The notes beneath the pieces are model-generated. The model saw only the letters and a list, made by a program, of their open reading frames with translations. It was not told the DNA's origin and did not search any database. Below, piece by piece: positions 8,079 through 41,697 of a stretch of 43,472 nt of DNA. Within the stretch, counting starts at the first letter, position 1. Every line of letters begins with the position of its first letter. This DNA comes from a virus. Location: positions 1 to 43,472 of IMG/VR virus record IMGVR_UViG_3300021601_000003; one strand, written 5' to 3'. Position numbers and translations under genes: made by a program.

Positions 8079-8098
8079 GCTACAAACGGCTACGCCAA
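8079..8098 (-). promoter_or_regulatory. GTAGC box pair, 10-bp phase
   Basis: In plus-strand reading GCTACAAACG starts at 8079 and GCTACGCCAA at 8089, exactly 10 bp apart; in the sense of transcription these are GTAGC boxes. The left box reaches into the 40-bp gap before the coiled-coil gene, and the exonuclease TAG stop (8092-8090) is embedded in the other. See the finding on the whole family. Confidence 0.4.
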
Positions 8099-10810: not shown

Positions 10811-11011
10811 TTACTTGGCGAGTTCACGCTTCCCGGCATATCCCTCGGATGCCAGATGACGCTTGAGGCTTTGGATCAACCAGTAAGTGCGCTTGGTGCC
10901 CGGGTTCTTGCTCATGGCCCGCTCCAGCATCCGTTCCACATCAGGGTAGGGAGCCAAATCAATGGTCAACCGGGTGCGGCCATCCTTGCTCTTGAGTGAT
11001 GTTCGATTCAT
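10811..11011 (-). CDS. Ribbon-helix-helix-like DNA-binding protein, 66 aa
   Basis: I choose the ATG at 11011 (MNRTSLKSKDGR) over a GTG at 11035. The pattern RTRLTIDLAPYPDVERMLERAM, a turn, then TYWLIQSLKRHL is a short strand followed by two helices, as in Arc/CopG-type regulators. The same pattern (LSVDLDANPEVRDAL, then SRLAIESLRRAL) occurs in the divergent gene at 11102, so the two look related. It is the first gene of the leftward early operon, and a perfect inverted repeat at 11042-11081 lies in the shared upstream region, consistent with autoregulation. Confidence 0.65.
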   Translation of the reverse strand: MNRTSLKSKDGRTRLTIDLAPYPDVERMLERAMSKNPGTKRTYWLIQSLKRHLASEGYAGKRELAK

Positions 11012-11041
11012 TGGCAAAAAGGTAAGACAAGTCACACAAGG

Positions 11042-11101: not shown

Positions 11102-11467
11102 ATGATGACGCACAAAAGTAAAATCAGAAAAAAAAGAAACATCCTGTCGGTTGATCTGGATGCAAACCCTGAAGTGCGTGATGCTTTGGCTACTGCATGT
11201 GAAGCTTCAGGGAACACGCCCTCAAGGCTGGCGATTGAGTCGTTGCGTCGTGCGTTGCCTGGTGTTCTTGAGGAGATTTCGCAGTCATCCGCAGAAGCGG
11301 CCTTGCGTCTCAATTCCACCGCACCCGTTGCCGTACCGGACCGCGCTGCTGACGTGGCCCGCGCCGCCCTTGCAACACTCGGCTCGAAATCTCCAACTGG
11401 CGAACCCACCGCGCCAGCTTCCGCGCCAGACAAAGCCGGTCGAACGGCGAAAGTTCGCCAGCAATAG
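11102..11467 (+). CDS. Ribbon-helix-helix-like regulator, 121 aa
   Basis: I choose the ATG at 11102 (MMTHKSKIRKKRN); the frame is open from a TTG at 11075. A basic N-terminus leads to NILSVDLDANPEVRDALATAC, a turn and PSRLAIESLRRAL, similar in pattern to the divergent protein at 10811-11011. The C-terminal half is Ala/Pro/Ser-rich and probably disordered. It is a plausible DNA-binding regulator of the early-lysogeny switch, transcribed away from the replication operon. The C-terminal coding part overlaps a minus-strand reading frame at 11310-11516. Confidence 0.55.
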   Translation: MMTHKSKIRKKRNILSVDLDANPEVRDALATACEASGNTPSRLAIESLRRALPGVLEEISQSSAEAALRLNSTAPVAVPDRAADVARAALATLGSKSPTGEPTAPASAPDKAGRTAKVRQQ

Positions 11468-11516
11468 CCTCCAGTTCAGGTTCCAGCACCACTTGCTTCC
11501 TCTTGGGGTTCTTCAT
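11310..11516 (-). CDS. Possible antisense-overlapping small protein, 68 aa
   Basis: The ATG at 11516 starts MKNPKRKQVVLEPELEAI, followed by GELSPFDRLCLARKLARWV and RQLEISSRVL, two amphipathic helices that look like a small phage protein rather than random frame. The end (RRGPRQQRGPVRQRVRWN) is less convincing. It overlaps the low-complexity 3' part of the plus-strand gene 11102-11467 by about 158 bp. Both may be expressed, or only one is real; conservation of this frame in relatives would decide. Confidence 0.35.
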   Translation of the reverse strand: MKNPKRKQVVLEPELEAIAGELSPFDRLCLARKLARWVRQLEISSRVLQGRRGPRQQRGPVRQRVRWN

Positions 11517-11757
11517 TCAACCAGCATCCGCAAACCACCCGGACACCTGTAGTCCTTGTGAATAACTTTCTGCGGCCCACCGCTGGCACACTTCCGTTGT
11601 AAGTCGTTGTCAACACGCAGTCGGAAAAATTCTTCTACAACGTGCAGTGAGGTTGTGGAAACCCCTGTAAAAACGGGCCAAATGCCACAAGTCGTTCCCT
11701 GGACGCCTGTTCAAAAGTGTCTGTTTGTGATGCCAATGGCTACGAAAGGATACGAAT
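11517..11757. other. Intergenic region downstream of integrase (candidate attP)
   Basis: About 240 bp without a convincing gene. AAGTCGTT occurs at 11601-11608 and again at 11689-11696, and several GTTGT/ACAAC words (11596-11700) could be integrase arm sites. Position next to the integrase stop suggests an attachment region, but no tRNA-like core is visible, so this is inference only. Confidence 0.25.
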
Positions 11758-11758
11758 T
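11739..11758 (-). promoter_or_regulatory. GTAGC-type box pair after integrase stop
   Basis: Plus-strand GCTACGAAAG starts at 11739 and GATACGAATT at 11749, 10 bp apart, directly downstream of the integrase stop codon. The second box is degenerate. It is a member of the phased array family and could serve the leftward frame starting at 11516, although that lies 220 bp away. Confidence 0.3.
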
Positions 11759-12822
11759 TATGCCGCTGCGACAGGCATCGGGCACACCATTGGCACACTG
11801 TCCGCATACGTGAGCCGCGCCAGATGGGGGGCCAGGGCGTCGGCTTGGGAGTGCGTGTAGTGGCGGTGCACGTCGGCGCTGGAGTGGTTCGCCAGCAGTT
11901 GCGTGACGCGCTGTTCCACGCCGGCTTGGGCGAGGCGGCTGATGAACGTGTGGCGGAACAGGTGAAAGTGAGCACGGGGCACGCCGGCGCGCTCGCAGAC
12001 TCCCTTGAACATGGTCGAGAAGTAGGTGCGCGACTTGGTGAGCAGTTCGTCCGGCATGACGCTGCCCGACGGCTTCCGATGCGGTTGCAGGGCGAACGCC
12101 AGGCGCGGATGCAGGGGCATGGTGAACGCGGTGGTCTTGCTGATGCGGAAGTGAATCACGGTGTCGGTAATGTCTTCCCAGCGCAGCCCCTTGATGCTGC
12201 TCGACCGGGCACCAGTGTAGCGCGCGATGTCCACGGCCAGGCGCATCCAGTCGGGCATGGGTGCCGCCAGCAGCGCGGCCAGCTCGGTGTCGGTGAACGG
12301 TTGCTTCTCCTCCTGATCCTGCTTGAAGGTGAACGTCCACGGGTTCTCTTCGAAGTCGCAGAAATGAAGCTTCTTGGCCTCGTCCCAAGCCGCGCGCAGG
12401 AACTGCACATCATTCCGCAGGGTGCCCGGCCCGATGCCACTGGTGCGGCGGTGCGCCACGTAGCGGGCTGCCACGGGATAATTCACGTCGGCCATGAGTG
12501 CCAGCTTTTCGCCAGCGAGCCAACTGGTGAACGCCTTGACGGTGTAGCTGTACCGGCCGCGCGTTGATTCGCGCAGGCCCTGGAGATTCGCCAGATGGCC
12601 GGTGAGGTAGTCCGTCACGGGCTTGGCTTCGATCATGGCCGCGACGCCGAACTTGGAACGGGCCTGACGTTCCTCGATGGTCCGGCGCAATTCCAGCACG
12701 GACGGCGTGGGCTTGGTGCGGTTCTCGTGGCGAATGCCAGTGGACACACGCACGCGGCCCGTGGCGGTGGTGTAACTGATCCACCAGAAGGGCGAACGGG
12801 ACCGTTGAAAGAGGTTGGCCAT
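11758..12822 (-). CDS. int: Tyrosine recombinase (phage integrase)
   Basis: The product is 354 aa. The N-terminal arm-binding part contains SPFWWISYTTATGRVRVSTG; a SAM-like core-binding domain spans about 65-150. The catalytic domain has Arg206 in YTGARSSSIKGLRW, Lys229 (ISKTTAF), His287 and Arg290 in HLFRH, His313 in ANHSS and the nucleophile Tyr322 in HRHYTHS, so all six catalytic positions appear present. It should integrate and excise the phage genome. The ATG lies 2 nt after the stop of a small DNA-binding-like gene. Its place between replication and structural modules shows that the genome here is not cut at attP. Confidence 0.95.
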   Translation of the reverse strand: MANLFQRSRSPFWWISYTTATGRVRVSTGIRHENRTKPTPSVLELRRTIEERQARSKFGVAAMIEAKPVTDYLTGHLANLQGLRESTRGRYSYTVKAFTSWLAGEKLALMADVNYPVAARYVAHRRTSGIGPGTLRNDVQFLRAAWDEAKKLHFCDFEENPWTFTFKQDQEEKQPFTDTELAALLAAPMPDWMRLAVDIARYTGARSSSIKGLRWEDITDTVIHFRISKTTAFTMPLHPRLAFALQPHRKPSGSVMPDELLTKSRTYFSTMFKGVCERAGVPRAHFHLFRHTFISRLAQAGVEQRVTQLLANHSSADVHRHYTHSQADALAPHLARLTYADSVPMVCPMPVAAA

Positions 12823-12824
12823 GG

Positions 12825-13100
12825 TCAGCCTTTCCGCCCGGCGACATTGCCCACGACCGGCTTCTTGATGAAGCGCGCCAAGGCGACCACCTCGGGCTCT
12901 TTCATGGGCTGCCCGTCTGGCGTCTCGATCATGGCGCGTCCGCCGTCCACTAGCATTCCCACGAGCTTGCCAACGGAGTAGTGCAGTTCACTAGATTGAC
13001 GCTCCAGCCAGTCGCGCTGGTCACGGGTGAAGCGGATGCTGATGGGGTCGGTGGTGGAGTCAACTGACGGGGCAACACGTTTGGTGGCGGTCGATTTCAT
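12825..13100 (-). CDS. Small DNA-binding-like protein upstream of integrase, 91 aa
   Basis: The ATG at 13100 has no Shine-Dalgarno; instead GTAAC boxes end 9 nt upstream. The N-terminus is basic and Thr/Ser-rich, then DPISIRFTRDQRDWLERQS and ELHYSVGKLVGMLVDGG give a strand plus two helices, a ribbon-helix-helix pattern. The C-terminus is basic (RFIKKPVVGNVAGRKG). It is probably a transcription factor or a recombination-directionality helper for the integrase it precedes by 2 nt. It is also the best candidate to bind the flanking phased boxes. Confidence 0.65.
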   Translation of the reverse strand: MKSTATKRVAPSVDSTTDPISIRFTRDQRDWLERQSSELHYSVGKLVGMLVDGGRAMIETPDGQPMKEPEVVALARFIKKPVVGNVAGRKG

Positions 13101-13108
13101 GGGGTACG

Positions 13109-13138
13109 GTTACAACACATTTGAAGAAGTTACAACAT
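13109..13138 (-). promoter_or_regulatory. GTAAC boxes upstream of the integrase operon
   Basis: Plus-strand GTTACAACAC starts at 13109 and GTTACAACAT at 13129, 20 bp (two helical turns) apart, both reading GTTGTAAC in the sense of the leftward operon. The nearer box is 9 bp from the ATG at 13100, which lacks a ribosome-binding site. Confidence 0.5.
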
Positions 13139-13151
13139 TTTTGTTGCATTG

Positions 13152-13176
13152 GTAGCGGAGGGTAGTTATTTGTAGC
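13152..13176 (+). promoter_or_regulatory. GTAGC/GTAGT triple array upstream of the rightward operon
   Basis: On the plus strand GTAGC starts at 13152, GTAGT at 13162 and GTAGC at 13172, each 10 bp apart, the last box ending 2 bp before the ATG at 13179. The boxes face the opposite way to those at 13109-13138, matching the direction of the gene they precede. Confidence 0.5.
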
Positions 13177-13178
13177 GC

Positions 13179-13415
13179 ATGAATTGCGACACCCCAAGAA
13201 CAGATGAATTCATTGGAGAACAAAGTGAGTGGTCGCCAGCACCGTTGAAAAACTGGCCAGCATTCGCCCGCCAACTCGAAAAGGAACTCAACGCCGCGCG
13301 GGCTGAACTCGCCGCCGTGAAGCTGGACCGTGACAACTGGAAGGCTTGGGGCCAGATGCAGAACCGTGACAACTGGAAGGCTTGGGGCCAGATGCAGAAA
13401 CAGGAGAAACCATGA
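13179..13415 (+). CDS. Small protein with duplicated 12-residue segment, 78 aa
   Basis: The ATG at 13179 directly follows a phased GTAGC array; a GGAGGG at 13156-13163 is too far away to be a normal ribosome-binding site. The product has a helix (WPAFARQLEKELNAARAELAAVKLD) and then two copies of RDNWKAWGQMQ, made by a 36-bp tandem duplication at 13328-13363 and 13364-13399. It resembles small phage proteins with an N-terminal CDTPRTDEF-type motif and a coiled coil. The function is unknown. Its stop overlaps the next ATG by 4 nt. Confidence 0.65.
   Translation: MNCDTPRTDEFIGEQSEWSPAPLKNWPAFARQLEKELNAARAELAAVKLDRDNWKAWGQMQNRDNWKAWGQMQKQEKP
13328..13399 (+). repeat. 36-bp in-frame tandem duplication
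   Basis: Two adjacent copies beginning CCGTGACAACTGGAAGGCTT are at 13328 and 13364. They add one 12-residue block to the end of the 78-residue protein. I see no difference between the copies until the last bases, which suggests a recent slippage or unequal exchange. Confidence 0.85.
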
Positions 13416-13705
13416 ACACGCTCAAACTCACCCTGAAAAAGAAGTGGTTCGACATGATCGCCAGCGGCGTGAAGAAGGAGGAATACCGCGCTCCATCTCG
13501 GTGGATTCGGTCGCGACTTGTCCACAAGGTTTGCGCCTACGACGCCGTGGACTTCACGAACGGTTACGGGGCCAACAAGCCGTTCATTCGCGTTGAGTTC
13601 CTGGGCTTTGAGTTCGGTGACGGAAAGCCGGAATGGGGCGGCACCAAGGGCGTGTACATCATTAAGCTGGGCAAGATTTTGGAACGTAGAAACATCAAAC
13701 CATGA
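13412..13705 (+). CDS. ASCH-domain protein
   Basis: The product is 97 aa from the ATG at 13412, with AGGAGAAAC as ribosome-binding site. LTLKKKWFDMIASGVKKEEYR is the conserved N-terminal part of ASCH/PUA-like phage proteins, followed by FTNGYGANKPFIRVEFLGFEF and KGVYIIKLGKIL strands. ASCH domains are thought to bind RNA or modified nucleic acid; the target here is unknown. It overlaps both neighbours in the rightward operon by 4 nt. Confidence 0.85.
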   Translation: MNTLKLTLKKKWFDMIASGVKKEEYRAPSRWIRSRLVHKVCAYDAVDFTNGYGANKPFIRVEFLGFEFGDGKPEWGGTKGVYIIKLGKILERRNIKP

Positions 13706-13890
13706 ACACCTCACCCCTCGACACCATCCTCGCCAAGCCCTGGTGGACTACCTCTGACGTGGCGGCGTACCTTGGCAAGACGCTCACGGCCACTCGCCAG
13801 TTGATGCGCCGGGCCGGGGTGCGGAAGTGCAAGCATGACCGGACCTTAACTTGCCGCGAGTGGGTGGACGCGGCGCTGGGGAGGAAGTGA
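13702..13890 (+). CDS. Excisionase-like helix-turn-helix protein, 62 aa
   Basis: The ATG at 13702 overlaps the ASCH gene stop. PWWTTSDVAAYLGKTLTATR followed by QLMRRAGVRKCK is a winged MerR/Xis-type HTH (DVAAYLG..TAT..QLMRRAGV), and the C-terminal REWVDAAL helix fits the size of phage excisionases. Given the integrase 1 kb away it may be the recombination directionality factor, or a small transcriptional regulator. Confidence 0.75.
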   Translation: MNTSPLDTILAKPWWTTSDVAAYLGKTLTATRQLMRRAGVRKCKHDRTLTCREWVDAALGRK

Positions 13891-14101: not shown

Positions 14102-17100
14102 CGTCCCCGTTGGCGTCCTTGTCCATCTGGCGGGCCGTCCATTGCACCGCCTGCGGGATGGCCAAGCTGCGGGCCTTGTCGCCCAGCCACCGATCGCGCT
14201 GGAGCGGGTCACGGAGATTGTCCAGTCCAATGCCCTCGCGCACGAACGGAGACTCATCTACGAGCCCGAGCAACGCCGCCGCCGTGCCAGCAGGCACGCC
14301 TTGCGGTTCACCATCAGACTTCTTGGCCTTCACACCAGCGACACGCGCCACAGTGGCACCCATCTGCACCACGTCCATCAAGGGATAGTGCAACAGGTTC
14401 TTGTCCACGTTCACCCCGTCGAGTTTGGCCGTGCCCGGCTTGAGATCATCCGCCTTGCGCTTCTCGCCATGGACGTAGAACCCGCCCCAGTTGCCGGCGG
14501 TGTAGAAGCCCAGCAGCAGCAGCGCGCCACCCAGTGACCCCTTGCTAAGCTGGCGCATGATGTCATCCGCTTCCTGGGGCTTGAGCGATTCCACGCCGCG
14601 CCGGTAAGCCTGCGCTGCCTTGGTGCCGCCCGTCAGCAAGCCCGTGGCGGTTTCCAGTGCTTCACCAACGATGTTGCTGGGCACCTTCACGATTGGAAGC
14701 ATGAGGCGCGCAGCCGTGGCCGCAGCCTTCCACCGGAGCGGCGTCTTGCCCGTGGTCTTGTCCTTGTCCTCCATGCGCCGGAGCGCGGCCTTGTACACGT
14801 CCACCACGCGGTTGTCTTGCAGGAAGATGGCCCGCTGCGCGTCCTTGTAGGCTTCGACGCCAAGACGCATTTGAACGCCAGGGTCGGACACATCCACGCC
14901 TTGGGCCGCGTTCCACTGCATCCGCTGCTCCATGCTGCGCGCCCACTCCGCGCGCTTGACGGGGGCCTTCAACGCGCCGTGGAGATGGCCGAAGAAATCC
15001 AGCCAGGTCTTGGGCAGCACGGAAGACTCGCCAATGCCGGCGGGGTCTTTGCCCTTGCCGAAAGCGAGGTCGAGATTGCTTTCCCCCGTCCGCAGCATGT
15101 CCCAAGCGTCCTTCATGCCAGTGGTGATGCCCTCGGACAGCGCCTTCACCTCGGCGCTCAACATCAGTCCACCTTGGCGCGGAGCACGATCCGCCAGCGC
15201 GGGCAATGCCTTGGCCCACGCTGCCTTGACGGCTTCCTCCATGGGCATGAACGCGGTGCGGTAGATGGCGGCCGACGTGAGCTTGGCGATGACCGCTGGC
15301 GACGACAGGATGGCCGCCCGGTGCCAGCGCACAGCCGCATCCATGGTCTTTTCCGCCGCCGTGCGATTGGCGAGCCGGTCGAGCAACAGCCCCTTGCGCC
15401 ACTCGCCCTTGGCCCGCTCGGCATCGGCCCGGAGCCGTTCCGCCTCGGGGTCCAGCTTCACGACCTTGCGTTGGCGCGGTTCGAAGTCCTTGTTCGCCAG
15501 GCGTTCGGCGTAATCAGCGGCAAGATTAGTGAGGCGAGTTTTCAAGGATGCCAACTGGCGCTCCTCGGCAGTCTTTACCGGCCCCTTACGCGCTTCCGCC
15601 AACCGGCGGTTCACTTCATCAAGTTGCTGGCGGGCCATTTCCAATTCCGGCGACGCCATGGGGCGGTTCACCTTGGCCGGCGAATTCGTGGACAGGTCGC
15701 CACTGGCAAGCTTGGCTTCCCGTTCAGCGATGGCCTTCTTCATGGACTCAAGCTGCCGTGCAATCGCTTCCGCAGCTTTCTGGCCCTCGGGCTTCTTACG
15801 CGCTTCCGCCAACCGGCGGTTCACTTCATCAAGTTGCTGGCGGGCCATTTCCAATTCCGGCGACGCCATGGGGCGGTTCACCTTGGCCGGCGAATTCGTG
15901 GACAGGTCGCCACTGGCAAGCTTGGCTTCCCGTTCAGCGATGGCCTTCTTCATGGACTCAAGCTGCCGTGCAATCGCTTCCGCAGCTTTCTGGCCCTCGG
16001 GCTTCTTACGCGCTTCCGCCAACCGGCGGTTCAACTCGTCCCGCTTCTGAATCAGCGGTTCAAGCACGGGATCAGCCGGACGGTTCACCGGCTTGTCCGT
16101 CGCCGGTTTCGGTCCATCCTTCAAAGCCTGCTCTTTGTCGGCAATGGACTTCTCCAGACTGCTCCGCTGGCGTTCCATCGCCTGCATCGCCTGCTGTTGC
16201 TGGTACTCGTTCGACAACTCCCGCAACTCCTGCCACTGCGTCCGCACCGCGTCACGCCGGGCCTTGAGCGCGTCCAGTTCCGGGCTGGTGATCGTCGGCT
16301 TGGACTTCTTGATGCCCGTCTCGCCAGCGGCAATGCGCTGCTCGTAATCGGCAATCTGCCGTTCCGTGGCCCGCACCGACGCCGCCAACAACTGCTCATC
16401 CGTCCTGCCCGGCTTCGGCACCAGGTCATCCAACTGGCGTTTCAACTCGTCCCGGCGCGCTTCCATCAACTGGCTTTCCGCATCGAACGGCGCATCCGTC
16501 TTGCTCTTGATGATGCGTTCCTTGGAATTGATCTGGAATTCCAGGTCGGCAATCTGGTTCTTGAGCCGGGTCTTTACCGCGTCCAGCGCGCTGCGCAACT
16601 GCCGGGCCGGGTCGGTCACGACCACGCCATGACGGCGCTTGGCCTCGTTCACCTGCTGAATCAGCCGCCGTTCCTCGTCGCTCTGTGGCCGGCGCTCGAT
16701 GCCGGTCTTTTGCAGCGGTTTCTTGGCCTGAATGTCCTCCAGCTTGGCCACCTGCTGCATCTGGCCCTTCAGATCCCGGAGCGTCGCCTTGGCAACATCG
16801 CGGTCCAGCGGTTTGAAACTGCCGTAACCGCTGATGGCGTCCATCGTCTCGCGCCGGGTGATGTCCATTCCCACCTCCTCGGTCACGACCTTGTGAACGG
16901 CATCCACCAGGGCCTCGCGCTCCGTGATTCCACCCCGGACAAAGCTCAACGCCAGCTTGCGGATGTAGTCGCCGGACAGTTTCAGGGGGATGTCCTCGGC
17001 TTTGGCCTTCTTCAGCCCCTCGATGATGTTCTCGCGACGGCCGGACTCGTCCTGATTCCGCAGCAACCGCTTCACGGGCTCGGCCTTGTCCCCGTACTTG

Positions 17101-33803: not shown

Positions 33804-33823
33804 GTTACAAACCGCTACCCGAT
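33804..33823 (-). promoter_or_regulatory. GTAAC/GTAGC box pair after the capsid stop
   Basis: Plus-strand GTTACAAACC starts at 33804 and GCTACCCGAT at 33814, 10 bp apart, between the capsid stop and the 33773 hairpin. It belongs to the phased array family. Confidence 0.4.
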
Positions 33824-35022: not shown

Positions 35023-35253
35023 AGGTCAAACAGGTTGAAAATTGCTCCCTGCACCCCGCACCACACGGCGCGGACAGGTCGCTATGTTCTTCCCGATTGG
35101 CCAGTTCGGCTTGAGCCTTCGCCCGCCGTGGCAGCCTCGGCGGGGCTTCTGCTGCTGCCAGTAGTCGTTCCGTGCCCGGATGCAGGGCGTCAACACATCC
35201 GTACTTCGACCGTTCCAACTACGCTACAAAGGAACACCAACGGCTACAAACTG
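35023..35253. other. 231-bp leader between scaffold and capsid genes
   Basis: No convincing gene. A minus-strand frame from a TTG at 35218 (LERSKYGCVDALHPG, 72 codons) runs through the leader and overlaps the capsid start by 23 nt; it lacks an ATG and a ribosome-binding site, so I keep it as a possibility only. The leader holds phased GTAGC boxes at its upstream end and may be a strong capsid promoter and 5' UTR. Confidence 0.4.
35223..35252 (-). promoter_or_regulatory. GTAGC boxes in the capsid leader
   Basis: Plus-strand GCTACAAAGG starts at 35223 and GCTACAAACT at 35243, 20 bp apart. They sit 200 bp upstream of the capsid start, directly after the scaffold stop. Confidence 0.4.
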
Positions 35254-36737: not shown

Positions 36738-37438
36738 TTGAGCAACACGTCCGCTACGGAACCATCCTTGCACCGATGCAGCAACGCCGCCGCTGGCGTG
36801 ATCCACTTCGCCAGTTCCTTCTTGTTCTTCACCGTGAGCGGTGCGCCCTCGGGACTGTTCACCGCCACACCGTTGTGCACGTTCCAGACGTGCAAAATCA
36901 GGTGGTTGATCGCGTTCGTCTTGGCCGCCGTCTCCTTCTTCATCGCCACGTCCCATGGCGTCTTCATGCACAGCATGGCATTCGACGAGTGCAATCGCAC
37001 GTCCGCCGGATAGATGCCCACGCCGTTCATGTGCCCCATGCCTTCCACGACGTGACCGCTGAACGGCTTCTTGCTCAAAACATGCGCCATGTCCAAATCC
37101 AGCAACCAACCCCGGCGCAACGGCACCGCATCCGCCTCCCACCACATCCAGGGTGTGGGGTCATTCTTCGACCGCTCACCCAGCTTCCACGCCGTCTGCT
37201 TGAACGCATGGTTCGGCCCCTGTGGCCACCCCGACGGGCCTTTGTAGTAGGTGTGCGTCTCCACCATCGGGAAAATCTCGCTCGCCGCCGCCATCACCGC
37301 GTCCAGCCCTTCCGTCCCTTCCTCGATGACCACCAGCACAGGTGAATCCAGCTTCCCGTCAAACTTCTTCGCCAACGCCAGGTTCTTCAACACCAGCGGG
37401 ACCTCCTTCGTGGTGAACGGCAGGACTACGCGCAGCAT
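36734..37438 (-). CDS. Glycosyltransferase-like protein, 234 aa
   Basis: The ATG at 37438 has GGAGGCGGA directly upstream and overlaps the end of the preceding small gene by 13 nt. The opening LRVVLPFTTKEVPLVLKNLA and SPVLVVIEEGTEGLDAVMAA suit a nucleotide-sugar-binding fold, and PWMWWEADAVPLRRGWL has an acidic E-x-D motif in the place of the DxD of GT-A enzymes. HMNGVGIYPADV and the helical end follow. It is probably a sugar transferase acting on virion, host or DNA; the substrate is unknown. Confidence 0.6.
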   Translation of the reverse strand: MLRVVLPFTTKEVPLVLKNLALAKKFDGKLDSPVLVVIEEGTEGLDAVMAAASEIFPMVETHTYYKGPSGWPQGPNHAFKQTAWKLGERSKNDPTPWMWWEADAVPLRRGWLLDLDMAHVLSKKPFSGHVVEGMGHMNGVGIYPADVRLHSSNAMLCMKTPWDVAMKKETAAKTNAINHLILHVWNVHNGVAVNSPEGAPLTVKNKKELAKWITPAAALLHRCKDGSVADVLLK

Positions 37439-37605
37439 TCCGCCTCCAGTTCGCGCTGCATCCGGGCCGCTTCCTTCAGGGCCTCGGGCTTGCGCGTCTT
37501 CTTGGTGCTCCGGTTCGTCCGCTGGCCTGATGGCAACCGCAAAACCGCCTGCCAATAGGGCGAATTCTTCTGCCGGCGCAGACTCGGCGTGTAGTTCTTT
37601 CTCAT
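37426..37605 (-). CDS. Free-standing integrase-arm-like protein, 59 aa
   Basis: The ATG at 37605 and TAG at 37428-37426 enclose MRKNYTPSLRRQKNSPYWQA followed by VLRLPSGQRTNRSTKKTRKP and EALKEAARMQRELEAE. This resembles the N-terminal arm-binding strand-strand-helix of tyrosine recombinases (compare SPFWWISYTTATGRVRVSTG in the integrase here), but no core or catalytic domain follows. It starts 4 bp after a three-box phased array and precedes a glycosyltransferase-like gene. It may be a DNA-binding regulator; the family link is by pattern only. Confidence 0.55.
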   Translation of the reverse strand: MRKNYTPSLRRQKNSPYWQAVLRLPSGQRTNRSTKKTRKPEALKEAARMQRELEAECCA

Positions 37606-37609
37606 GTCG

Positions 37610-37639
37610 GCTACCGGAGGTTACAACAGGTTACAACGG
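37610..37639 (-). promoter_or_regulatory. GTAAC/GTAGC triple array
   Basis: Plus-strand GCTACCGGAG starts at 37610, GTTACAACAG at 37620 and GTTACAACGG at 37630: three boxes at exact 10-bp spacing filling the gap between the portal stop (37642) and the ATG at 37605. No Shine-Dalgarno sequence is present. Confidence 0.5.
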
Positions 37640-39907: not shown

Positions 39908-39937
39908 GCTACAGTGTGGTATCACCGACTACCACGG
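39908..39937 (-). promoter_or_regulatory. Phased box array abutting the portal ATG
   Basis: Plus-strand GCTACAGTGT starts at 39908, a degenerate GGTATCACCG at 39918 and ACTACCACGG at 39928, in 10-bp register. The first box is directly adjacent to the ATG at 39906. Confidence 0.45.
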
Positions 39938-41260: not shown

Positions 41261-41641
41261 TCATTTGGCGTGCGTGCCTTCAACCCCGCGCCGCATCCGT
41301 TCCAACGTCCTCTTCTGGAGCCACATCTGGGCTTCCTCAATCTTGGTGAGGGCAACCGCATTGTCTCTGCACGCATACGGCCCAGCCTGAAATGACCGCA
41401 GACGATCCGCGACGATGGCTAGCAGAACCTCCTGCGTCACACCATTTACACCCACCTCGTTGATCGGCCCATTCTGGAACGCGATCAATGTTTCTGCCGG
41501 AATTGCCACACCCCCATTCTCCGGCTTGTAACCAGCGATGAGGTAGTGATGGCACGCACCACCAGCTCCGGGTTGGTCAGTAACAGTGATGGACAACGTA
41601 TCGTTGCACGGGTTGATCTTGTGTTCGTTCAGGGTTCTCAT
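41261..41641 (-). CDS. Tad1/Acb2-like cyclic-nucleotide sponge candidate, 126 aa
   Basis: Residues 9-40 are beta-like (INPCNDTLSITVTDQPGAGG, then CHHYLIAGY). Residues 55-68 FQNGPINEVGVNGV and the helical part from LLAIVADRLRSFQAGPYACR through NAVALTKIEEAQMWLQKRTL to RGVEGTHAK match the family I know as Acb2/Tad1 hairpin-domain proteins, which sequester signalling molecules of Thoeris or CBASS immunity. Ligand specificity cannot be read here. It lies alone between terminase and the zinc-ribbon gene, has an A-rich leader without a Shine-Dalgarno, and is preceded by a perfect three-box phased array, suggesting its own control. Confidence 0.7.
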   Translation of the reverse strand: MRTLNEHKINPCNDTLSITVTDQPGAGGACHHYLIAGYKPENGGVAIPAETLIAFQNGPINEVGVNGVTQEVLLAIVADRLRSFQAGPYACRDNAVALTKIEEAQMWLQKRTLERMRRGVEGTHAK

Positions 41642-41667: not shown

Positions 41668-41697
41668 GTTACACCAAGTTACAACCGGCTACAAGCA
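41668..41697 (-). promoter_or_regulatory. GTAAC/GTAGC triple array upstream of the Tad1-like gene
   Basis: Plus-strand GTTACACCAA starts at 41668, GTTACAACCG at 41678 and GCTACAAGCA at 41688, exactly 10 bp apart, between the terminase stop (41699) and the ATG at 41641. Confidence 0.5.

Follow-up and report, generated by a model that had tools for sequence, protein, structure and literature searches.

Oriented, helically phased box arrays at gene boundaries of an uncultured phage

In the literature cited here, repressor sites that act on elongating polymerase in an orientation-dependent manner are described for the cluster A mycobacteriophages. These stoperators are asymmetric, lie in short intergenic spaces with their orientation matched to transcription, and lose repression on reversal (PMC9283540, PMC6550527). 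A different architecture is described for excisionase/BldC-type proteins, which bind head to tail on direct repeats about one helix turn apart (PMC7498355, PMC5859096, PMC11963761); RdfS is presented as a related filament former (PMC11963761). Apl of phage 186 represses both pR and pL, and has five sites at attP besides the seven that lie between these promoters (PMC7498355). The repeats of BldC from Streptomyces, AATTXXXX(C), run in either direction, being reversed at whiI and forward at smeA (PMC5859096). A flip of the array with transcription is not described for known excisionase arrays in the cited portions of these accounts.

The DNA analysed here (the window) is the whole 43,472-base IMG/VR virus record IMGVR_UViG_3300021601_000003, which is classed as linear, has 62% GC and belongs to an uncultured phage. 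Within it, a gap of 78 bp (13101-13178) is bounded by ATG 13100 on the minus strand and ATG 13179 on the plus strand. The leftward and rightward operons thus start 79 nt apart, as the earlier note had stated, and its second observation holds as well: each operon has its own array facing its own direction of transcription. The leftward array (13109-13135, minus strand) consists of two TTGTAAC boxes at 13129-13135 and 13109-13115, in a 20-bp step; the slot midway between them (13135/13115) reads TTCAAAT, which is no box. The rightward array (13141-13176, plus strand) has three boxes in 10-bp steps, TGGTAGC at 13150, GGGTAGT at 13160 and TTGTAGC at 13170, only one of which is a perfect TTGTARC, and also a degenerate TTGTTGC near 13141. 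The two arrays start 15 bp apart in the middle of the gap and extend outwards to 8 and 2 nt from the leftward and rightward start codons, respectively, and array orientation flips exactly where transcription flips. A scan of 12800-13500 for a TTGACA-16/18-TATAAT sigma70 promoter found no site.

Six further arrays, all on the minus strand, lie in tandem gaps. The array at 41668-41694 (TTGTAGC 41694, TTGTAAC 41684, GTGTAAC 41674) precedes the ORF starting at 41641, and that at 37610-37636 (TTGTAAC 37636, TTGTAAC 37626, CGGTAGC 37616) precedes a 59-aa ORF starting at 37605. Two arrays use a 20-bp step: TTGTAGC at 35249 and 35229 (array 35223-35249), beginning 5 nt past a stop codon and 227 nt from the putative capsid gene, and TGGTAGT 39934 with CTGTAGC 39914 (array 39908-39934), ahead of the putative portal (ATG 39906). 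The remaining two have two boxes each and are followed by hairpins, the only strong hairpins between array and next gene among the eight arrays: GGGTAGC 33820 and TTGTAAC 33810 (array 33804-33820), 3 nt past a stop codon and followed by a 12-bp GC hairpin with a T-run, and GCGTAGC 8095 and TTGTAGC 8085 (array 8079-8095), which overlaps the end of the upstream gene and is followed by a terminator-like hairpin. Over these six gaps, the first box begins 6, 7, 5, 5 and 3 nt past the stop of the preceding gene in five cases and overlaps that stop by 5 in one, and its distance to the next start codon, as called here, is 31, 28, 227, 53, 65 and 120 nt. Seven of the eight arrays lie in gaps, the other beginning within the final bases of a gene. 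The eight occur at gene boundaries along 33 kb and are opposed only at the divergent gap. The genes behind these six arrays comprise a 126-aa ORF, a 754-aa putative portal, the 59-aa ORF, a putative capsid gene and two others; the portal and capsid labels follow from gene order and size, without a database match. The 126-aa ORF (41261-41641, minus) scores 24.3 bits for the Acb2/Tad1 hairpin domain PF24729 (E 3.7e-5), below the cut-off of 27, and is possibly a nucleotide-sponge counter-defence protein. The 59-aa ORF (37426-37605, minus), with its array directly upstream, reads like the arm-binding N-terminus of a tyrosine integrase lacking the remainder.

The box is far more abundant in the window than expected by chance, with 17 copies of TTGTARC against 3.4 ± 1.8 in shuffled sequences and none of 100 shuffles reaching 17. 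Four exact TTGTARC pairs occur at 10 or 20 bp, versus none in 300 order-2 Markov sequences; for the relaxed KKGTARY there are eight such pairs, against a Markov mean of 0.04 and a maximum of 1. Same-strand KKGTARY boxes up to 45 nt apart are spaced by 10 bp six times, by 20 bp four times and by no other distance. Spacings of 10 and 20 bp only are consistent with one face of B-DNA, and such a strict register argues for a protein lying along that face. Among enriched 6-mers in the sense strand of gap DNA (seen at least four times), nine of the top ten are sub-words of KTTGTARCS. A motif matrix ranks as its top eight the arrays 41694-, 37636-, 13150+, 35249-, 13135-, 33820-, 39934- and 8095-; this matrix was trained on the same boxes that it recovers, which makes the ranking circular, whereas the shuffle, gap and spacing counts are not.

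We counted box direction relative to the next gene on a hand-curated list of 17 gaps (1,662 bases), leaving out the convergent gap 11468-11757, which has no direction. TTGTARC is sense in 11 cases and antisense in none, and KGTARY is sense in 19 and antisense in none. With purely mechanical ORF calls, KKGTARC over the window is oriented with the next gene 11 times and against it twice. The six TTGTARC copies inside genes (two sense, four antisense) lack the bias seen in gaps, and the sole plus-strand array of the window is the one ahead of the rightward operon. The data show, for this window, the box sequence, its 10/20-bp register, its gap position and its coupling to direction.

Similar arrays are found elsewhere, with no such coupling. 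A triple-box pattern in 10-bp register was retrieved from 88 stretches of viral contigs, compared with 39 for a permuted control pattern, so part of this signal is background; in genomes it was retrieved from at least 120 stretches. When 73 distinct viral-locus arrays were classified mechanically, 17 ran with and 22 against their same-strand neighbours, the rest lying in divergent gaps (10), in convergent gaps (5), inside ORFs (5) or at locus edges (14). Among the matches listed for genomes, 123 arrays gave a similar picture (24 with, 29 against, 19 divergent, 14 convergent, 9 inside and 28 at edges), and a piecewise check of nine records revealed neither direction coupling nor an array set like that of the window. 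Since the similar arrays elsewhere have no preferred direction, direction coupling is peculiar to this phage, and the possibility that they represent the same system was rejected. The earlier note had proposed that the boxes are oriented elements rather than generic repeats, and the data bear this out; it had named the divergent gap as the strongest evidence, but the whole window and the control on other phages and genomes give stronger support than this single gap.

What the other arrays do appears to be different. Of 50 array-bearing viral records examined whole, 47 contain a TTGTARC pair, mostly as a single cluster per record, and several have their arrays as opposed pairs 200-300 bp apart. 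Three of five array-neighbour proteins tested have a PHROG primase match (L043, L049, L031). Many arrays in other phages seem to resemble origin iterons, and the window puts a similar box to another use. At L043, L049, L031 and in other records, arrays beside primase-helicase genes are probable origin iterons common to unrelated phages. In addition, one Paludibacteraceae MAG has TTGTARC arrays on at least five contigs (L160, L175, L192, L207, L215), four of which carry opposed pairs separated by about 270-285 bp, and a Bacteroidetes MAG has such arrays on at least six (L165, L170, L183, L193, L201, L204); both sets possibly belong to a multicopy mobile element.

The divergent gap separates two plausible operons. 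The leftward one starts with a 91-aa gene (12825-13100, minus) whose product reads as ribbon-helix-helix-like, has no significant HMM match (Pfam and NCBIfam included) or PDB match, and gives an uninformative structure model (pLDDT 61.6). It is directly followed by a 354-aa tyrosine integrase gene (11758-12822, minus; PF00589 E 2.2e-16, phrog_1 E 9.6e-44), in agreement with the leftward integrase operon that had been proposed. The rightward operon, all on the plus strand, comprises a 78-aa ORF without a family above chance (13179-13415), an ASCH-like phrog_625 protein of unknown function (13412-13705; phrog_625 E 9.3e-20, Pfam ASCH E 0.087; 48% by tblastn to Cellulophaga phage phi19:1), a 62-aa protein that looks winged-HTH/excisionase-like from its sequence and is a candidate box binder (13702-13890), and one further short ORF. 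Overlaps of 4 bp among its first three genes make this operon plausible too. The name ASCH/excisionase operon given to it earlier fits in part: ASCH corresponds to the phrog_625 and Pfam ASCH matches only, and excisionase is without HMM support, the sole Pfam match of the 62-aa protein being Sigma70_r4 (E 0.049, below the cut-off), with no match in NCBIfam or PDB. Neither the 91-aa nor the 59-aa protein gave a model reliable enough for searching by fold.

The same earlier note took this gap for a likely lysis-lysogeny switch. The boxes are not specific to such a switch, because they also precede the putative portal, capsid and other genes, and a CI-like repressor was not recognised: neither operon has a repressor family match of the CI type, and the proteins scanned, a subset of the window ORFs, include none for an L5-type immunity repressor. 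A role of the arrays in a lysis-lysogeny switch is no more than possible. A second divergent pair of small genes, at 10811-11026 (minus) and 11102-11467 (plus), is RHH-like by eye on both sides, and the AT-rich gap between them has TTGTAAT, TTGTCAG and TTGTGTG in the minus sense. Positions 1-135 carry tandem repeats of 27 bp, a short stretch near 13330-13401 is duplicated in tandem, and a 210-bp unit is repeated in tandem (99%) at 15580-15999 inside a 2567-aa ORF. Rfam and tRNA scans of the window returned no matches.

Our tentative interpretation is that a small DNA-binding protein of the phage uses the arrays as operators that are helically phased and coupled to direction, a reading to which we give a little less than an even chance. 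The gap 13101-13178 would hold two outward-facing operator arrays, part of a phage-wide set of eight. The candidate binders are two small proteins, the winged-HTH-like one of 62 aa encoded in the rightward operon and the RHH-like one of 91 aa encoded in the leftward operon. With one protomer for each turn of the helix, the binder would line up head to tail along the 7-bp boxes, and it may in this way control transcription into several structural genes as well as into the int and early rightward operons. We infer that such a protein would bind at the DNA level, that it is one of these two products and that it would repress rather than activate. The sites face only the direction of polymerase travel, as stoperators do, suggesting contact with the polymerase. 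Against this reading, neither candidate binder has a significant HMM or PDB match, and no scan located a promoter for the operons behind the arrays. The best reading is that these operators would work like excisionase/BldC-type operators and mycobacteriophage stoperators, with membership proven for neither. A bolder version, which we consider doubtful, is that of a previously undescribed direction-coupled operator code, in which a small filament-forming protein on phased TTGTARC arrays, located just past stop codons and before divergent starts, would gate the one-way passage of polymerase, joining the excisionase/BldC binding mode to stoperator-like elongation control genome-wide.

The comparison with each known system is mixed. 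Like the stoperators of the cluster A mycobacteriophages (L5, Bxb1, TipsytheTRex), the window arrays are asymmetric, scattered in short intergenic gaps, face with transcription and also stand where operators in promoter regions would. However, stoperators are single 13-bp sites, more than 20 per genome in L5, and the window has no such single site in at least 20 copies, instead having two or three 7-bp boxes in 10-bp register at eight places; the box sequence also differs, and no counterpart of the 183-residue L5 repressor was recognised. Like the Apl, Xis and Cox operators (coliphage 186, lambda, P2), the window has direct repeats about one helix turn apart, at 10 and 20 bp only, between operons corresponding to the lysogenic and lytic sides, with a gene that looks excisionase-like by its sequence (the 62-aa gene) in the lytic-side operon. 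In contrast to those operators, array orientation changes with transcription, arrays also stand before structural genes, and none is clearly recognisable at the likely attP. An excisionase-type operator would be expected to recur at attP, and the likely attP gap, the convergent gap 11468-11757 beside int, has imperfect boxes only, TTGTAAG/TTGTCAA (11597/11607, plus, 10 bp apart) faced by TTGTAGA on the minus strand (11597-11640), which counts against this assignment. BldC is likewise a small winged-HTH protein (68 residues) with direct repeats of varying number at many promoters; its repeats run either way, whereas the direction of the window arrays is fixed. The arrays beside phage primase genes share the box and the 10-bp period, but usually form one cluster per record, without direction coupling. 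The window contains no array of that kind, beside an initiator or primase gene and with a direction untied to transcription.

A serious rival to the operator model, though on the unlikely side in our estimate, is that the boxes are core promoters for an unusual or phage-altered sigma factor, producing leaderless or near-leaderless messages. One box would supply TTGTAR as the -35 element and the box 20 bp further on would supply TARCnn as the -10 element, with a 17-bp spacer; numbered from the A of ATG 13100 as +1, TTGTAA occupies -35 to -30 and TAACCG occupies -12 to -7. Such promoters would account for box direction and gap location. Three stretches that between them span the window contain 0, 0 and 1 canonical sigma70-like sites, against shuffle means of 2.1, 2.6 and 2.3. 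The array-first genes (13100, 13179, 37605, 39906, 41641, 35022, 7975) also show no Shine-Dalgarno word on scanning, but neither do many array-less genes. Moreover, the final T of a -10 element is mostly absent from the TARCnn hexamers, the same rule puts the start inside the gene for 37605, 39906 and 13179 (13150/13170 pair), and the additional box in the middle, at 41684 and 37626, would be left without a function. Hairpins directly after the arrays at 33820 and 8095 also sit badly with a simple promoter for the next gene. The order stop, array, hairpin, next gene at these two places would suit RNA leader or intergenic signals, for example loading sites of an antitermination complex after stop codons and ahead of terminators, modelled on the lambda nut-type sites. 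Strict sense orientation and an untranslated position agree with this idea; the exact 10/20-bp spacing points rather to DNA helical register, and the leaders, folded as single sequences, have no common structure by eye, leaving an RNA signal quite improbable.

Integrase arm sites in other phages are tandem repeats, and an array lies directly upstream both of the int operon and of the 59-aa ORF 37426-37605, which reads like an integrase N-terminus. The boxes could thus be arm-type sites of the integrase, or of this lone arm-like domain, used as operators, and the near-identical loci L034 and L039 (outside the 50 tested records) have an integrase-like ORF about 150 bp from the array. Yet the 59-aa ORF has no Pfam, PHROG, NCBIfam or PDB match, and its model (pLDDT 71) has no beta sheet. 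A PF00589 match occurs in 14 of the 50 other records with arrays, adjacent to the array in only one (G045, locus L086), so arm sites were rejected as a general explanation of the arrays, and for the window we consider them very improbable. Replication-origin iterons or other generic repeats have the lowest probability and are hardly to be expected: the primase-helicase neighbours (three of the five tested) and opposed pairs of other phages speak for them, but the window arrays, spread over 33 kb at gene boundaries and direction-coupled, are unlike those arrays, and the direction control already disfavours this explanation.

No close relative of this phage was found. The searches gave none for the integrase, the 91-aa protein or the putative capsid in the viral contigs searched, for the integrase in the genome contigs searched, or for the putative portal and capsid among named phages; the putative portal was likewise without relatives in eight genomes and in three phyla represented by 285, 392 and 396 genomes. 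Terminase relatives at about 25% identity were found, and none of 84 such loci has a phased TGTARC pair. A search of the open-licence literature found no published account of this box or of an oriented, phased intergenic repeat recognisable as it. If the operator reading is true, the phage would provide a second, unrelated design of direction-dependent sites, with tandem phased boxes, indicating that the principle arose more than once, and its eight natural arrays would form a compact, testable set. If the boxes are promoters instead, this phage, whose lineage is unplaced, would reveal promoters of an unusual class.
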